This document shows positions 1 through 8,628 of a stretch of DNA of 40,239 nt, in pieces. The stretch is from Microthrixaceae bacterium. GTDB taxonomy: Bacteria; Actinomycetota; Acidimicrobiia; Acidimicrobiales; Microtrichaceae. The notes under the pieces are model-generated. The model saw only the letters and a list, made by a program, of their open reading frames with translations. It was not told where the DNA came from and did not search any database. The number at the start of each line of letters is the position of its first letter. The first letter of the stretch is position 1. The stretch is from NCBI GenBank assembly GCA_020439285.1, contig JAGQSZ010000003.1, positions 10,021 to 50,259 on the forward strand, read 5' to 3'. The position numbers and the translations under genes are program-made.

Positions 1-58
1 TCTCCACAATTCCAAGGGATGCCGAGAGCGAAGTCCTGCATCCGAAGGAGTCATGCCA

Positions 59-910
59 ATGACCGAGATCACAAGGCTTGCGGCCACAGACGCTCAAAGT
101 CTTCCTGAAGTCCTGAATCGCGATGGTGTCGTGATCGTCGAAGGACTGCTGGATGAGGATCTGTTGGCACGGTTCAACGCAGAACTGGACGGATTGTTGG
201 ACCAGGCTGCGCTCGGAAAGGACCAGAAGTTCATCAACGATGGCGTTGCATGGTTCTTCGGGGACAAGACGCGACACGTGACCGGCTTGGCCAGCAAGTC
301 ACGGATCTTCGCTGAAGAAATCCGGACGCTGCCGCCGTACATGGCAGCGTGCGACGCAATCCTGGGCCCGAACTGTTCCGACTACTCGTTGAACTTGGCC
401 CACGTCCTAGACCGTGGGCCCGGTGGTGACCAGCAGATGATCCACCGTGATGAGGATGTATGGATCCACTTTCCCCAGCCCCATCCCGAGATCGAACTCG
501 CATCGGTGATCGCTCTGATCGACTTCACCGCCGAGAACGGGGCGACCAGGGTCGTCCCGGGTAGCCATCTTTGGGATCGGGACCGTCAGGCGACCGATGA
601 CGACCTGGTACCAGCAGTGATGGACGCCGGTTCAGCCGTGGTGTACCTGGGCTCCACATTGCATGCCGGTGGCGGCAACACAACCGACATTTGGCGGCGA
701 GCGATGCACGTCAGCTACTGCCTTGGTTGGCTTCGAGCGGAGGAGAACCCGTTCCTGACCACACCCATGGACATGGTCCGCAGTCTCCCCCGCCGCAACC
801 AGCAGCTGTTGGGTTTCGGAGCCCACGACGCCATCGACGTCGGCGGCGGCTATCTGGGGGTCATCGAGTTGCAAGACCCCGTGGAACTTCTGGCGAACGG
901 CGTCCTGTAG
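59..910 (+). CDS. Phytanoyl-CoA dioxygenase (PhyH) family protein
   Basis: Predicted non-haem Fe(II)/2-oxoglutarate-dependent oxygenase. Counting from the upstream ATG at 53, the iron ligands are visible as HRD (H131, D133) and a distal His (H204) in the STLHAGG segment. R215/R216 is placed to bind the 2-oxoglutarate carboxylate, and the NGATRVVPGSH motif (162-172) is typical of PhyH proteins. Length (283 aa) fits the family. I prefer the ATG at 59 over that at 53, because the GAAGGAG ribosome site at 44-50 is 8 nt from the former and only 2 nt from the latter. The substrate cannot be read from sequence: members hydroxylate phytanoyl-CoA, ectoine and many secondary metabolites. It stands alone; the next gene is convergent. 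Confidence 0.9.
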   Translation: MTEITRLAATDAQSLPEVLNRDGVVIVEGLLDEDLLARFNAELDGLLDQAALGKDQKFINDGVAWFFGDKTRHVTGLASKSRIFAEEIRTLPPYMAACDAILGPNCSDYSLNLAHVLDRGPGGDQQMIHRDEDVWIHFPQPHPEIELASVIALIDFTAENGATRVVPGSHLWDRDRQATDDDLVPAVMDAGSAVVYLGSTLHAGGGNTTDIWRRAMHVSYCLGWLRAEENPFLTTPMDMVRSLPRRNQQLLGFGAHDAIDVGGGYLGVIELQDPVELLANGVL

Positions 911-2865: not shown

Positions 2866-3192
2866 TTGTTCAGCCAGTCCACGCAACCCCACGAATCCCC
2901 GAGTTCTAAGGACCGAATTCTGGATGGTTGCAGCGGCAGAAGTCTGATTCTGAACAGGTTGCAACCGCCCCAGGAAGTCAGGAGACTGGACCAACCGTCG
3001 CTCCCCACATGACCGATCAGGGCACAAACGCGCGTAGCGGTGTGCCATATATGCGCAACGCGACCATCCCTCCCACTCACCGCTGATGTCGCCGCACCCT
3101 GACATCTTCCTTGTAAGAGAAGCGCCCACTTGCTGGACTGACGATCGGGCCGTTGAACTTCAATGGTTCTGTGCAGGTGCGGCCGATCGCGA
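2866..3192. other. Gene-free stretch with tRNA-Val-derived repeat
   Basis: No protein-like frame is visible on either strand. The open frames that cross it are antisense shadows or have random composition. It contains the tRNA-Val anticodon-arm copy at 3101-3125, described separately. Confidence 0.5.
3101..3125. repeat. att-like copy of tRNA-Val anticodon arm
   Basis: Twenty-five bases that match 5137-5161, inside the intact tRNA-Val gene, at 24 positions and in the same orientation. The single difference is A for G at 3118, in the anticodon stem. Similarity falls off abruptly at both ends: the T arm and acceptor stem are not recognisable. Tyrosine-recombinase attachment cores often coincide with a tRNA anticodon arm, so this is a candidate att site remnant, with the partner inside the tRNA gene. 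Confidence 0.55.
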
Positions 3193-3513
3193 TCAGGCGA
3201 CTTGGACAGCATCCTTGAGCTTGGCCGGCACCTTCTCCGGGAACGAAACCACCAAGTGCCGATCGAGCGCAGTAGCAACCCGTGCGAGGGTATCAATCCG
3301 GTTCCGCGCTCCACCACCTTCTTCAAGACGGGAGATCACAGATTGAGTCGTGCCCATACGTTCGGCGAGCTCACGCTGACTGAGACCAGCCTCGGTGCGC
3401 AGGTCATAGATAAGTTGGCCAAGAGCTAGGTCCTGCTCCACCCCGGCCCGAATGCTTGAGTCGGGACCAGGCCGCCTCTTCTTGATGTCGTCCCAACGGG
3501 AATAGTTGGCCAT
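3193..3513 (-). CDS. HigA-like XRE antitoxin
   Basis: DNA-binding antitoxin of the XRE/HigA type, 106 aa. The helix-turn-helix is seen as LSQRELAERMGTTQSVISRLEEGG in the middle of the protein, and the tail (HLVVSFPEK) is typical of antitoxins paired with RelE/HigB-like toxins. The AAAGGAG ribosome site abuts the first ATG at 3519 but is 6 nt from the ATG at 3513, so I chose 3513. The toxin gene lies immediately upstream with only a few bases between, giving the toxin-first order of HigBA systems. It probably represses its own operon by binding the palindromes at 3860-3897. Confidence 0.85.
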   Translation of the reverse strand: MANYSRWDDIKKRRPGPDSSIRAGVEQDLALGQLIYDLRTEAGLSQRELAERMGTTQSVISRLEEGGGARNRIDTLARVATALDRHLVVSFPEKVPAKLKDAVQVA

Positions 3514-3524
3514 CGCCATCTCCT

Positions 3525-3848
3525 TTAGGGGTACCGCTCGGCACAGACTTCAGCAGCCTGACGAGCTCGGGCAATCTCGTGACGTTCGTTGTTGCGCTGT
3601 TTACGGAACGTCGTCAACAAAATGATCCGGCCATCTCTCGTGAACCGATAGGTAATCCTCCGAGCCGTATCACCAAGTGTGAACCGCAACTCAAACAACC
3701 CATCGCCCAAGCTCCTCGACAGTGGCATTCGAGCCGACGAACCCAAGGTGAGCAAACGATCAATCACCACAACGATCCGGCCCCACTCAGAATCATCCAA
3801 TGAATCCATCCACTCGACGATCTCGTCATGGAGTTCCACCTCGACCAC
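3525..3848 (-). CDS. HigB/RelE-like toxin (Gp49 family)
   Basis: Predicted ribosome-dependent mRNA interferase of the RelE superfamily, 107 aa. Seen: the LSRSLGDGLFELRF and ARRITYRFTRDGRIILLTTFRKQR segments, which are diagnostic of phage-derived Gp49/HigB-like proteins, with the basic FRKQRN run near the C-terminus. It is first in the operon, ahead of its XRE antitoxin. The start is GTG at 3848 with no clear ribosome site, so the mRNA may be leaderless, or the in-frame GTG at 3839 may be used. Two nested inverted repeats lie just upstream. It sits inside the tRNA-Val-flanked segment, as accessory toxin-antitoxin modules often do. Confidence 0.85.
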   Translation of the reverse strand: MVEVELHDEIVEWMDSLDDSEWGRIVVVIDRLLTLGSSARMPLSRSLGDGLFELRFTLGDTARRITYRFTRDGRIILLTTFRKQRNNERHEIARARQAAEVCAERYP

Positions 3849-3859
3849 ACTATTACACT

Positions 3860-3897
3860 ATCGCATTAATGCGATGATCGCACAAGAGCGATCATCG
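3860..3897 (-). promoter_or_regulatory. Nested operator palindromes of HigBA operon
   Basis: Two perfect inverted repeats overlap directly upstream of the toxin start. One is the 16-nt palindrome ATCGCATTAATGCGAT at 3860-3875. The other is CGATGATCGC (3872-3881) paired with GCGATCATCG (3888-3897) around a 6-nt spacer. They share the GCGAT half-site. Placement 11-49 bases ahead of the toxin gene fits autoregulation by the HigA-like antitoxin; binding is inferred. Confidence 0.6.
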
Positions 3898-4018
3898 TCT
3901 ACGGACGGCCGAGCATCACGACACGAACCCATTCCCACATGGGATCTGTGCCCGAAACGGTTCCACACCAACTGTCAGTCACCGGAAATGCCGAAACCTC
4001 CGGTATCTCGGGGTCTCC

Positions 4019-4438
4019 GTGGTGGAGGTACTCGCGCTAGTAGCGAAGCACGAACTGCAAGCTGCCCTCGGGCAAGTCGGCGGCCGCGCCGCTGAGGACA
4101 AGCACATCCCGACCGTTCAGCGCCCACGCCATCAGCAGCGCGGGTTGGTGCCCGATCAGGTCGGCGAGGCCGTGGCCCAGTACCTCGATAGCGAGTCCAT
4201 CGATGCTCTCGCCCGGGTGTACGGAATCAGCCGCACGACGGTCATCAGCCACTTCGAACGCAATGGCGTCGAACGCCGGCGCAACCCGCGCAAGATGACC
4301 GCGGCCAAGGTAAAGGCGGCGACAGTTCGATACGCGACGGGCACCTCGCTGGCAGTCGTCGCGTCCGAGTTCGATATGTGTGACCGAACGCTCCGGAGCG
4401 AGTTGAAGAGCGCCAGCGTCGGTGTTCGCCAGCGATGA
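4019..4438 (+). CDS. Tandem helix-turn-helix protein, possible recombinase C-terminus remnant
   Basis: The C-terminal two-thirds holds two consecutive HTH units: residues about 44-90 (VAQYLDSESIDALARVYGISRT...) and 92-139 (TAAKVKAATVRYATG...MCDRTLRSEL). Such tandem Hin-like HTH tails are common at the C-terminus of actinobacterial serine recombinases, but also occur in short stand-alone DNA-binding proteins. No catalytic domain is present. The first 43 residues have no protein-like pattern, so the true start may be the GTG at 4148 (V44) and the gene may be a remnant. Its position within the tRNA-Val-bracketed segment fits either a mobile-element relic or cargo regulator. Confidence 0.5.
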   Translation: MVEVLALVAKHELQAALGQVGGRAAEDKHIPTVQRPRHQQRGLVPDQVGEAVAQYLDSESIDALARVYGISRTTVISHFERNGVERRRNPRKMTAAKVKAATVRYATGTSLAVVASEFDMCDRTLRSELKSASVGVRQR

Positions 4439-4507
4439 AGACACCCTGTCGGCGGGGTACGTCACCACTCCGAGCAGCAGGGACGCCACGCAGAATAGAG
4501 TCCTCAC

Positions 4508-4948
4508 ATGAAGATCCAACTGCAGGACCTCTATCACGGGGCGGCTCTCATGCAGGTCGTAGAGGACCCCAACTTCAAGGCGTTGAACAAGGCCTCGGAC
4601 GGCAAGTACGGGCATTACGTGCTCAACAGCGACACGCGACTCTTCGTGAAGTACACGACCGGAAGCGGGCCGGAGTTCAAGTTCAACCTCTCGCCCGACG
4701 ACCTCGACTCCATCAGGGCCGACGAGGACAAGGGCCACGCCGTCTTCCTGGTGCTGGTCTGTGGTGAGGAGTCGATCTGTCCGGTGCCAGCGAGTGAGCT
4801 GTGGAACGTGGTGGATCGCACCACGACCGCCCCGAAGCAGGTGTGGGTGACCTGGCCGAACGGTGGGTCAATGCGGTTCGGGTGTGGTTCCCATGAGATG
4901 ACGAAGACGATCCCGCACAACAGTTTCCCGAAGCAGGTCCTTAGCTAA
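4508..4948 (+). CDS. Conserved hypothetical protein, 146 aa
   Basis: Soluble protein starting MKIQLQDLYHGAALMQVVE, with no signal peptide or membrane segment. Visible blocks are a KYGHYVLNSDTRLFVKY strand-rich region, a VFLVLVCGEESICPVP block and a C-terminal IPHNSFPKQV end. The pattern looks like a real folded family that recurs in accessory regions, but I cannot assign a name or function. It follows the HTH ORF by about 70 nt and precedes the tRNA-Val terminator, so it is the last gene of the putative integrated segment. The ribosome site is weak. Confidence 0.6.
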   Translation: MKIQLQDLYHGAALMQVVEDPNFKALNKASDGKYGHYVLNSDTRLFVKYTTGSGPEFKFNLSPDDLDSIRADEDKGHAVFLVLVCGEESICPVPASELWNVVDRTTTAPKQVWVTWPNGGSMRFGCGSHEMTKTIPHNSFPKQVLS

Positions 4949-5072
4949 TCCCGGCTCAGGGCTGTGAGGTGCTCGTCCGACGCAGCAGCTTCAGAAGGAA
5001 CAACAGAGATTGAACCCAGGGAGGATCACTCTGGGCGTTCGGGAAGACTAGGGTCCCCGAACTCGCCTGCCA

Positions 5073-5107
5073 GAAAAAGGCAACCCCCCCGGTATTCCGG
5101 GGGTTGC
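5073..5107 (-). terminator. Rho-independent terminator of tRNA-Val
   Basis: Read on the minus strand, GCAACCCCCGG and its complement CCGGGGGTTGC form a GC-rich hairpin around a short loop, followed by CC and TTTTT. It begins 5 nt after the tRNA-Val 3' end. Confidence 0.85.
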
Positions 5108-5111
5108 GTGG

Positions 5112-5185
5112 TGGGCGCGGAGGGACTCGAACCCCCGACATCTTCCTTGTAAGGGAAGCGCTCTAGCCAACTGAGCTACGCGCCC
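5112..5185 (-). tRNA. tRNA-Val (anticodon TAC)
   Basis: A complete cloverleaf can be drawn. The acceptor is GGGCGCG/CGCGCCC plus discriminator A, the D stem GCTC/GAGC, the anticodon stem CTTCC/GGAAG with loop CTTACAA (anticodon TAC), and the T loop TTCGAGT. It is 74 nt and CCA is not encoded. Its anticodon arm (5137-5161) is repeated at 3101-3125, which suggests use as an integration site. A terminator follows directly. Confidence 0.95.
5137..5161. repeat. att-like core inside tRNA-Val (partner of 3101-3125)
   Basis: Anticodon arm of the intact tRNA-Val, present a second time at 3101-3125 with one mismatch and in direct orientation. The stem gives the inverted symmetry expected of a tyrosine-integrase core site. 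The distance between the two copies is about 2.0 kb. Confidence 0.55.
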
Positions 5186-5296: not shown

Positions 5297-6700
5297 ATGA
5301 CCGACGAGATCACAGCGTCGCAGCACCTTCCGCGCAATCCACTCCCCCGTATCACCCGCAAAGTGTTCCGAGACCTGGCCATCTGGATGATGAGCTTCGG
5401 CCTCGTCATGGGCGTGATATTCCCATTCTTCGTCATCGCCTTGGGCGTGCCCTCTCACTACGTACTGTCCCCGCTGTTCTTCGCCGCGACAATCGGTGCA
5501 GGACTAGTTGTCGGGCTCAGCAACCAGTTCCTGTCGAGAGCAGTCGTTGGTTCCAGGCTCAGGTTCATGCGGGCACGCATGAACAAGGTCGAACAGAACC
5601 TCCGCGACGCGATCTACTCGGGCGAGGCATCGGCATGCACCCCGGAGTCGTGTTCGATCACTGTCGACTCCGACGACGAGATCGGGGCCGCTGCCGCATC
5701 GTTCAACCGCCTGGTTGAAGCACTCGCCGCCAGCCATCAGGTCACAGAACTCTCGAGGCGATTCGCAACGACGCTCTCGTCACACATCGAGTTGGGGCCA
5801 CTTACCGATGCTGTCCTTCGCGACCTTCAGAGCACGGGCGGATTCTCCGCTGCTGCGCTGTGCATCGTCCGCGACGGAAAGATGATGACGACCGCCTCCA
5901 ACGGGTTCACCGACTCGGCCCACCTTGCAGAATCCGAACCGGTGCTCCGCGCCTACAAGACGCTCGAATCCGTGCGTTTGGACATTCCGGATGACCTGAT
6001 GATCGACGGCGGTGTCGTTCCCTTCCGGCCTCGCACGGTGCTGGCCCTTCCCCTGCAACTGAGGCTGGTGCCGATCGGTGTGCTCGTCGTGGCCTCCACC
6101 GACGTGGTGACCGATGAGATGGAGAACCTCATCAATTTGTTGTTGCCGAATTTCACGGTCGCGCTCAACAACGCGCTCAGCCACGAACGGCTCCAGCGGG
6201 TGGCCGCCATGGACATGCTCACCGGCCTCTACAACCGCAGATTCGGCCTCGAGCGGCTAGGCGAGGACTTCGCAAGAGCAGTTCGTTCGCATGAACCCTT
6301 GGGGTTGGTTCTCTTTGACATCGATCACTTCAAGTCGATCAACGACACCTATGGCCACCAGGCTGGCGACCGGGTGATCAAGGGTGTCGCTGACGCAGCC
6401 CGGTCTGTCCTTCGAGAGGGCGACACCTTGATGCGCTACGGCGGTGAGGAGTTCTTGGCGGTCCTTCCGGGTGCCGGGCCTGACGACCTGACCGATCTCG
6501 GTGAACGGATTCGTCGAGCGGTCCAAGAGAACGCCATCACCCATGGCCACGACGAGTTGCAAGCGACGATCAGCCTGGGAGCGGTTTCGTTCCCGTCAAC
6601 AGAGGTCACCGACACCGAAGACCTGGTCCGCCACGCTGATGCTGCGATGTACGTAGCCAAATCCGCCGGTCGGAACCGACTCAACATGGCCGGCGTCTGA
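5297..6700 (+). CDS. Membrane diguanylate cyclase (HAMP-GAF-GGDEF)
   Basis: Makes cyclic di-GMP from two GTP at the inner face of the membrane. Two membrane segments (about 28-50 and 58-78) are followed by a HAMP-like linker (80-148, with SDDEIGAAAASFNRL). Then comes a GAF-like sensory region (about 150-295) and a GGDEF domain (300-467) opened by DMLTGLYNRR. The active loop is GGEEF (382-386), catalytically competent, and the RxxD inhibitory site is present as REGD (373-376), five residues before it, so product feedback is expected. A BldD-like protein with a c-di-GMP signature lies at the other end of the window. The start is supported by AGGA upstream. It is monocistronic, divergent from tRNA-Val. 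Confidence 0.93.
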   Translation: MTDEITASQHLPRNPLPRITRKVFRDLAIWMMSFGLVMGVIFPFFVIALGVPSHYVLSPLFFAATIGAGLVVGLSNQFLSRAVVGSRLRFMRARMNKVEQNLRDAIYSGEASACTPESCSITVDSDDEIGAAAASFNRLVEALAASHQVTELSRRFATTLSSHIELGPLTDAVLRDLQSTGGFSAAALCIVRDGKMMTTASNGFTDSAHLAESEPVLRAYKTLESVRLDIPDDLMIDGGVVPFRPRTVLALPLQLRLVPIGVLVVASTDVVTDEMENLINLLLPNFTVALNNALSHERLQRVAAMDMLTGLYNRRFGLERLGEDFARAVRSHEPLGLVLFDIDHFKSINDTYGHQAGDRVIKGVADAARSVLREGDTLMRYGGEEFLAVLPGAGPDDLTDLGERIRRAVQENAITHGHDELQATISLGAVSFPSTEVTDTEDLVRHADAAMYVAKSAGRNRLNMAGV

Positions 6701-6740
6701 CACAGGCGAACGAAACGCTGGGCCGCTAGCGGTCAGCTAC

Positions 6741-7160
6741 TCAATCAGCGGATGGTTCGATCAGTTCGAGCACACGATCTGGGGGTCGGGCTATAACGGC
6801 CTTGTCCCCCACTACGACGATCGGCCGCTCGATAAGGCTCGGGTTGGCCGCCAAGGCTTCGAGCACCTCTTCATCGGTCGCATCGTCGAGTTCGAGTTCG
6901 CCCCAGAGCACCTCACCGGTTCGGGCCATCACCCGCGGGTTCGTGGCACCGAGCATCGCCTGAACCCGCTGTAGGTCCGCCACACTCGGCGGTTCGAGTT
7001 GATAGTCGACATAGCTCGCATCGACACCACGCTCAGCCAGGATTGACTGCGTCGTCCGACACTTGGAACACGCAGGATTGAACCACACCACGGGCTCGAT
7101 TCCGCCCGCCATCTTTGCGTTCAGCTCGTCGTCGATGTTGAAGCGATCAGAATTCGTCAT
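6741..7160 (-). CDS. ArsC/YfgD-like arsenate reductase family protein
   Basis: Thioredoxin-fold protein of the glutaredoxin-dependent ArsC family. The catalytic Cys lies in NPACSKCRTT, and the later NPSLIERPIVV segment carries the conserved Arg-Pro that shapes the oxyanion site. Length is 139 aa from the first ATG; an in-frame ATG at 7112 (MAGGIEP) would give 123 aa, closer to the core family. No arsenite pump or ArsR lies near, so a true arsenic role is unproven, and YfgD-like relatives have unknown substrates. It is followed after 47 nt on the upstream side by an inositol-monophosphatase-like gene on the same strand, possibly co-transcribed. Confidence 0.8.
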   Translation of the reverse strand: MTNSDRFNIDDELNAKMAGGIEPVVWFNPACSKCRTTQSILAERGVDASYVDYQLEPPSVADLQRVQAMLGATNPRVMARTGEVLWGELELDDATDEEVLEALAANPSLIERPIVVVGDKAVIARPPDRVLELIEPSAD

Positions 7161-7207: not shown

Positions 7208-7969
7208 CTATAGCTGGCCTTGTTGCAGCTCGGCGCGGATCTGATCCAGTAAGTCGTGGTTGCCAGCCGATAGCGGTTTGCGTCGCACGTCGTGGCCGAT
7301 CTCGAGCAGATCGCGTCCGTCACGGTCCTCGACAACCGCGCCTGATTCACGAAGCACCAGCCATGCTCCCAGGTAGTCCCAAGGGCCGAGCGCTCCGCTG
7401 AAATCGATTGATGCGTCAACGGTTCCATCCGCGACGCTGCACAGGTCGAGCGCTGTTGCGCCGAGTGACCGGTATTGCAGCCAGGACGTGAACGTCGGGT
7501 CGAATCCGTTGAGGACGAGCATCGCCTCGCGCAGATTCGAACGCTTCGACGGTGCGATACCCACTCCATCGCATGTCGCCCCGGAACCCCGTCGGGCCTG
7601 GTAGCGCCTACCGGTCTCCAAGTTGACGATCAGCGCCACCCGTGGCCCTGCATCGTCGAGAACGCAGAGACTCGTCGCGTACCAAGGAATCCCCCGGGAT
7701 GCGTTTGTAGATCCGTCCACGGGGTCCATCACGACGATCAACTCGCCTCCCCTGTCGATCAGACCGACCTCTTCGGACAACACGCTCAGCCCGGCTGTTT
7801 CGAACAGCGGAAGCGCCGCCGACTCTGCAACGAGGTCCAACCTGAACTGGCCTTCCCTGGTTCCGGGTTCACGCGGGTCAGCGATCTTGGCTGCTAGGTC
7901 TTGTCGCAACGCGAGCCGGATAGCCTGTGACGTTTCATCGAGCAGGCGAGCTATTGAATCGTCGTCCAC
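7208..7969 (-). CDS. Inositol monophosphatase family protein
   Basis: Mg2+-dependent, Li+-sensitive phosphatase superfamily, 253 aa, starting at GTG. Metal ligands are visible: the EE pair at 66-67, D82 and D85 in DPVDGSTN, and the late Asp in GPWDYLGAWLVL. Substrates of relatives include myo-inositol-1-phosphate (needed for phosphatidylinositol and mycothiol), histidinol phosphate and 3'-phosphoadenosine 5'-phosphate. Sequence alone does not decide. The ArsC-like gene follows 47 nt downstream on the same strand, and the next gene upstream is divergent. Confidence 0.88.
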   Translation of the reverse strand: MDDDSIARLLDETSQAIRLALRQDLAAKIADPREPGTREGQFRLDLVAESAALPLFETAGLSVLSEEVGLIDRGGELIVVMDPVDGSTNASRGIPWYATSLCVLDDAGPRVALIVNLETGRRYQARRGSGATCDGVGIAPSKRSNLREAMLVLNGFDPTFTSWLQYRSLGATALDLCSVADGTVDASIDFSGALGPWDYLGAWLVLRESGAVVEDRDGRDLLEIGHDVRRKPLSAGNHDLLDQIRAELQQGQL

Positions 7970-8058
7970 CGGCAGAGGCTATAACGCCTGCTATCCAAGG
8001 TCAGGGACAATTACCGGCTGGCTAGCCCATCGGGGCTGAAACTGGCACTCTTGAGGGC

Positions 8059-8628
8059 GTGGCACTGCTTGATGTGGCCGGATTCGTTTCCGAACTGAAG
8101 AACCACGCTGCGGATCATGGATTCCACATCCATGACGAGAGGCACTTCGTCGAGACCTACTCCATGCGCCAGGCATGGGAGGTGGATCTGCACCCCGAGG
8201 AGGCCTGCGGCGGACCCGTGGAGTTCCATCTCGCTCTTGAGATCGATCCCCGCACCATGTTCGCATTCGAGGACCAGGTGATGGCCCTCCCCGAGAACGA
8301 GTTCCCCGACGAAGCCCATTTCCTGCCGCTCACTTTCAACTGGTCACTGCCGCCGCTTCCGAGATGCCCGGACTTGCTGGTGCTGGCAACCGATATCGCC
8401 GGGATCGGCGGGCCCGAGTTGCCCCTTGAGGTCTCAGCTGTTGACTCGTTCCCGTCGGCAACGGACCCATCCGAACGGTCACTCATGGTCGTCGCACGGG
8501 TGATGGTGAGCCTGTCGCAGATCTTCAAGGGTGAGGACAACCTGTGCTCGATCCTGGATCGATGCTTGGACGTCAGCAGCTACCTGCTCGAATCTGCCCC
8601 GAGTTGGCTTGACGACCACGACTTCTGA
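8059..8628 (+). CDS. Hypothetical protein, 189 aa
   Basis: Soluble acidic protein starting at GTG. No signal peptide, membrane segment or known motif was recognised. The regular alternation of hydrophobic strands in the first half (HIHDERHFVETY, WEVDLHPEEACGGPVEFHLALEID) and a helical C-terminal third (VARVMVSLSQIFKGEDNLCSILDRCLDVSSYLL) suggest a genuine folded protein. GAGGG lies very close to the GTG, so the exact start is uncertain. It is divergent from the phosphatase gene and about 120 nt ahead of the DUF2510 gene on the same strand. No function assigned. Confidence 0.6.
   Translation: MALLDVAGFVSELKNHAADHGFHIHDERHFVETYSMRQAWEVDLHPEEACGGPVEFHLALEIDPRTMFAFEDQVMALPENEFPDEAHFLPLTFNWSLPPLPRCPDLLVLATDIAGIGGPELPLEVSAVDSFPSATDPSERSLMVVARVMVSLSQIFKGEDNLCSILDRCLDVSSYLLESAPSWLDDHDF

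Follow-up and report, generated by a model that had tools for sequence, protein, structure and literature searches.

Gene content of the tRNA-Val locus

We analysed a stretch of 40,239 nucleotides (the window: contig JAGQSZ010000003.1, positions 10,021 to 50,259 of the forward strand) from a Microthrixaceae bacterium whose draft genome is 76% complete and consists of 519 contigs. An intact tRNA-Val (UAC) gene lies on the minus strand at 5109-5185 (ARAGORN; Rfam RF00005, 72.9 bits) and is 99% identical to positions 8676-8753 of contig C153 in genome G001, which is of the same genus and the nearest relative on hand. The initial annotation had reported a 25-nt direct repeat with one mismatch that links this gene to a site about 2 kb away. 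Our repeat search of the window gave the same pair (24/25 identity, 3101-3125 against 5137-5161) and extended it without gaps to 29 nt in direct orientation, with 27/29 positions identical between a proximal core inside tRNA-Val (5133-5161), which places the putative proximal attachment site in the anticodon arm, and a distal core (3097-3125), which would be a displaced or attP-derived copy of that arm. The tRNA parts spanned by the repeat are the anticodon stem-loop, the variable region and the first bases of the T stem. On the tRNA strand, the one difference within the 25-nt core is a stem C to U change that keeps a G-U pair. Shuffles of the window gave 0.00 expected matches even when 3 mismatches were allowed, and a random sequence the size of a 3.2-Mb genome would contain about 4e-7 matches with at most one mismatch in 25. 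The family was represented by 33 genomes, 14 of which contain the motif (at most 3 mismatches), as one copy in 13 of them and as two copies only in the genome of the window; where their surroundings were read, the copies in the other genomes all lie within tRNA-Val. The match is therefore not one that occurs widely by chance, which was a concern of the initial annotation.

The distal copy stops before the tRNA 3′ end, leaving an anticodon-arm core with no recognisable 3′ half, and in this most of the parallels described below differ from it. Its flanks resemble tRNA at chance level only and have no Rfam match. A weak local alignment had suggested a second, decayed tRNA gene at 3097-3160; this candidate was rejected, as extension to either side was no better than in shuffles and Rfam was empty. 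Also, a scan of viral contigs for the core in viral attP sites returned 10 matches, all 10 being complete viral tRNA-Val genes, which we treat as neutral evidence. The GC content across the interval is 54-65% and marks no sharp island boundary by composition.

Next to the distal core, on the minus strand, lie a higB toxin gene (3525-3848, 107 aa, Gp49/RelE-like, PF05973) and a higA antitoxin gene (3193-3519, 108 aa, HTH_3). The toxin gene comes first and the antitoxin gene follows after a 5-bp gap, and the Pfam matches (1.6e-13 and 1.5e-11, respectively) bear out the HigBA-type module named in the initial annotation. Upstream, homolog alignments show a conserved promoter/operator at 3849-3897 with repeated GATCGCA/TGCGAT sites, which is also the edge of the conserved HigBA block. 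By gene order, domains and operator, the pair is thus classed as a predicted HigBA-type type II toxin-antitoxin module.

Two further genes lie on the plus strand. The first (4019-4438) encodes a tandem-HTH DNA-binding protein of 139 aa (HTH_28 3e-6; phrog_664 1e-9). Among 148 genomes of the order, 21 encode relatives of it, which are mostly free-standing. Pfam found no recombinase or resolvase catalytic domain either in this ORF or in its longest relative (L071), and the suggestion that the ORF is the tail of a recombinase stays unconfirmed. A reading of the long frame of L071 as a serine recombinase fused to an HTH was withdrawn, as Pfam did not support it. The closest members of this small family (L068-L092) begin VEVxALxAKxE. 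The second gene (4508-4948) encodes a 146-aa protein of the phage/plasmid family phrog_28860, and the match spans its full length (E 2e-38). Samples of 298 genomes from the order and 396 from the phylum showed it in the genome of the window only, and viral contigs, genome contigs and phages contained no relatives. Plasmids of Nostoc and Calothrix carry two distant homologs (L174, L175), each immediately followed by a Z1-domain protein and with SNF2/DEAD helicases in the vicinity, and the protein may originate from a Z1-type cluster for restriction or defence. Its single-sequence AlphaFold model is of low confidence (mean pLDDT 63; 31-48 for four other models). Within the interval, neither Pfam nor tblastn found an integrase, an excisionase, a transfer gene or a convincing remnant of one, in agreement with the initial annotation that no full integrase is left. 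The genome has five tyrosine recombinases (PF00589), all on other contigs.

Outside the unit, at 2611-2865 on the plus strand, is a fragment of an Mrr-type nuclease gene (PF13156, 6e-17; PADLOC REase_MTase_IIG, 5e-14). The 84-aa product covers positions 15-86 of the 127 in the Mrr_cat_2 profile. This gene was already described as broken, and the fragment makes repeated turnover at the site plausible.

Orthologous tRNA-Val loci

Orthologs of the tRNA-Val gene were assigned by synteny with the genes at window positions 7208-8628, which gave four loci (G001:C153, G002:C4, G017:C49 and G024:C5). None of the four carries the HigBA segment, and this includes the locus of the same-genus relative G001. 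Relatives having the same genes in place with no repeat, the finding that the initial annotation took as contrary to its proposal, were thus not seen among them. The DNA past the 3′ end of tRNA-Val is unlike in every relative. As a result, the tRNA-Val gene is a variable site, and a clean empty site is not demonstrable: the downstream DNA is unrelated at all four loci and none has an empty site with matching flanks. At the G002 locus the 3′ end of the orthologous tRNA-Val is followed directly by genes for a complete tyrosine integrase (PF00589 7e-22) and an HTH_17 excisionase, so this tRNA serves as an integration site in the family. On the other side of the gene, GGDEF and ArsC-family genes (window 5297-7160) separate tRNA-Val from the gene at 7208; in G001 the GGDEF gene is on a different contig, away from tRNA-Val, which shows that the tRNA 5′ side varies too.

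HigBA loci in other genomes

A HigB scan of the genome collection gave 41 loci, mostly in Acidimicrobiia-type metagenome assemblies. The DNA common to the HigBA homologs is a block of about 705 bp from the higA stop to the operator (window ~3193-3897), in contexts that are otherwise unrelated, and in nearly all full-length homologs the alignment ends at 3892-3900. In 6 of 30 loci (L103, L105, L114, L119, L123 and L127) a core matching the anticodon arm of tRNA-Met is present less than 300 bp past the higA stop, and L143 has a decayed tRNA-Met core after higA. Cores are 23 times as dense within 300 bp after higA as elsewhere in the 30 loci (p 2e-6, a value that overstates independence since the loci are related). 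Judged by their end sequences, the loci with HigBA and a tRNA-Met core belong to at least 4 lineages (L103/L105/C201, L114/L127, L119/L123 and L143). All 14 of the 14 tRNA-Met cores in the 30 loci are co-directional with HigBA, as is the case in the window. The distance from the higA stop to the core in the six loci is about 160-210 bp, and by analogy the 67 bp between the distal core and the higA stop of the window (3126-3192) would represent the element end. L105, L114 and L127 have an intact tRNA 3′ half behind the core. Behind the cores retained by L119 and L123 this half is decayed, which is the state of the distal copy in the window. Many HigBA loci have no tRNA signal nearby. In two loci (L113, L118) tRNA-Arg and tRNA-Ser genes lie upstream of HigBA, and no distal copies of them were found.

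Related sequences also occur elsewhere in the genome of the window. Contig C201 opens with a tRNA-Met core, and a truncated higA lies about 170 bp away. Near contig ends, L043 (G000:C201, 186-330) and L044 (G000:C341, 1-150) carry the final ~110 bp of higA, in both cases fused to the tail of an excisionase-like HTH gene, with an identical fusion point.

Comparison of tRNA-bracketed units

Several members of the HigBA family lie in units bracketed by tRNA repeats. The unit of L114 has 46/46-nt repeats of tRNA-Met 5.7 kb apart; an intact integrase (PF00589 1e-24) adjoins its proximal core and HigBA adjoins its distal core. In L121 (Actinomycetales bacterium MAG BWSM_131) a 100-bp repeat of tRNA-Ala (CGC), 97% identical, recurs 2.4 kb apart and encloses a truncated integrase (PF00589 2e-6) followed by a HigBA that groups with the HigBA of the window in the tree (support 0.94). 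This unit is like ours in its small size and in having a co-directional HigBA between the tRNA and the distal copy. It is unlike ours in the tRNA used, in a distal repeat that runs through the tRNA 3′ end and in the integrase fragment that remains. The unit of L123 has a 105-bp repeat (97%) 3.1 kb apart with HigBA inside and no integrase ORF seen, and in L119, which is apparently the same element, the integrase is decaying. tRNA-Met repeats also bracket L131 and L141. A unit with a different module is present at G692:C360:23699-25241 (L146, L158), where 1.5 kb extends from an intact tRNA-Met to its displaced 3′ half; its sole genes encode an HTH_17 and a PIN-domain protein, with no integrase, and it may be described as a putative minimal toxin-antitoxin islet.

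Two classes of known elements are close to the unit of the window. Islander defines islands by a tDNA-fragment signature and includes an anticodon-centred class of attP (PMC4383910). Its islands with tyrosine integrases and an anticodon sub-site have, like our unit, an intact tRNA gene at one end; the direct tDNA fragment at their other end and the crossover region in the anticodon arm would have their counterparts in the distal copy and the repeat of our unit. Our unit is unlike them in being very small, in the fragment having no 3′ half and in lacking a tyrosine integrase between its ends, because of which it would fail the Islander filter. A CIME is a decayed ICE or IME that has lost its integration and transfer genes and kept attL and attR (PMC5704250). 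Our unit shares with these the absence of integration and transfer genes, the att-type repeats at a tRNA gene and a content of cargo plus a toxin-antitoxin module; its proximal site is intact and its distal core is retained at 27/29, whereas the distal arm is lost, leaving a 29-bp core with no tRNA 3′ half. With a core as its sole distal remnant, the unit is best termed a putative CIME-like islet in decay, and we stop short of assigning it to the CIMEs in full.

Origin of the unit

We conclude that window positions 3097-5161 are, with high probability, a strongly decayed, integrase-less, CIME-like remnant of an element that was integrated at tRNA-Val (UAC) by a tyrosine recombinase. The decisive point for this reading is comparative, namely that the HigBA family recurs in tRNA-bracketed units. 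It is further favoured by the integrase and excisionase at the orthologous tRNA-Val of G002, by the lack of the segment at the G001 ortholog and by phrog_28860 being confined to this genome among those sampled from the order and phylum. Against it weigh an interval devoid of integrase, excisionase and transfer genes, a distal copy that stops short of the tRNA 3′ end, the lack of an empty site with matching flanks among the relatives, the incomplete draft state of the genome and the many HigBA loci with no tRNA signal close by. The initial annotation had proposed placement by a tRNA-targeting recombinase, which gains from finding the same HigBA family bracketed together with an intact (L114), a truncated (L121) or a missing (L123) tyrosine integrase. 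Its view of the unit as very small or decayed, with the integrase lost, is likewise consistent with an interval of about 2 kb devoid of integrase and with the parallels in L121 and L123.

In the mechanism that we propose, a tyrosine recombinase would have inserted the element at the anticodon loop of tRNA-Val (UAC). The attP of the element would have provided a tRNA 3′ half, leaving the tRNA intact, and the original 3′ half would have been displaced some 2 kb downstream. Later deletions would have removed the integrase and whatever transfer genes were present, and the displaced copy would have eroded to the core alone. The remainder would be the cargo (the tandem-HTH gene and the phage/plasmid-type gene) and HigBA at the distal end, pointing to the distal core. 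This module probably acts by addiction, such that a cell losing the unit would be left with stable toxin and no fresh antitoxin; the distal end may have persisted because addiction would punish its loss. Stabilization of integrated elements by toxin-antitoxin modules has been tested experimentally for the type II module of SXT (PMC2654960) and for HipAB on CGI48 at tRNA-Trp (PMC8978831). These elements are similar to our unit in carrying a type II module with a proposed stabilizing role. They differ in being large islands with tested function, the role in the window being drawn by analogy. With no integrase of its own, the unit would be mobile only through a same-core integrase acting in trans or through tandem insertion of another element, as in a CIME.

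The sharp edges of the ~705-bp block at the higA stop and the operator, being all that the HigBA homologs share, would also fit a fusion of two unrelated events, in which HigBA was inserted beside a separate phage remnant at a place where the attachment-site scar of an older element was already present. The DNA past the tRNA and the Mrr fragment, which suggest serial insertions and deletions, agree with such a history. Yet the recurrent layout is itself HigBA beside a distal core and co-directional with the tRNA, and we regard this fusion as unlikely.

The unit might instead be an active, minimal non-autonomous islet, with att cores maintained by selection and with integrases from other elements mobilizing it in trans. 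Against this, no pair of near-identical copies at different sites was found, and the distal core carries substitutions. The decay of the integrase in L119 also favours passive decay. Such an activity is improbable in our judgement, even though integrase-less units recur (L123 and G692:C360), cores are kept as the adjoining 3′ halves decay, and the genome has five tyrosine recombinases elsewhere. The broader proposal that small integrase-less tRNA-bracketed islets with HigBA or PIN/HTH form a recurrent class of non-autonomous passengers of att systems, spreading to different tRNA genes by integrases acting in trans, is held to be of similarly low probability. Least probable is a distal copy that is no attachment site but a piece of some other tRNA-Val gene, from a phage tRNA array or a duplicate, with ordinary accessory DNA as the interval, for although large-virus tRNA-Val genes share a near-identical anticodon arm and L094 matches the 23-nt core of the distal copy exactly, its A included, the flanks of the copy are not tRNA-like, a lone anticodon arm is the expected look of an attachment core, and HigBA repeatedly adjoins such cores at other tRNAs in constant orientation.

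Under the decayed-element reading, a 29-bp anticodon-arm repeat sufficed to detect an integrase-less islet that integrase-based island finders miss. It also exposed a recurrent layout, in which one HigBA family lies co-directionally near the distal core at tRNA-Met, tRNA-Ala and tRNA-Val. If addiction modules preferentially survive at the distal end, this would explain, in a way open to testing, the shrinkage of integrated elements to toxin-antitoxin remnants.

Other observations

Two genomes each have a contig with three co-directional tRNA-Met cores (G694:C162 at 38065, 44595 and 50731; G687:C8 at 168255, 238625 and 244282), suggesting tandem arrays of integrated elements at tRNA-Met. Window positions 1-78 (G000:C330:10021-10098) are repeated with 97% identity at C330:9935-10011 and with 100% identity at the end of contig C89, and unresolved bases directly precede the start of the window; this is probably an assembly gap or duplicate within the start of a PhyH gene.
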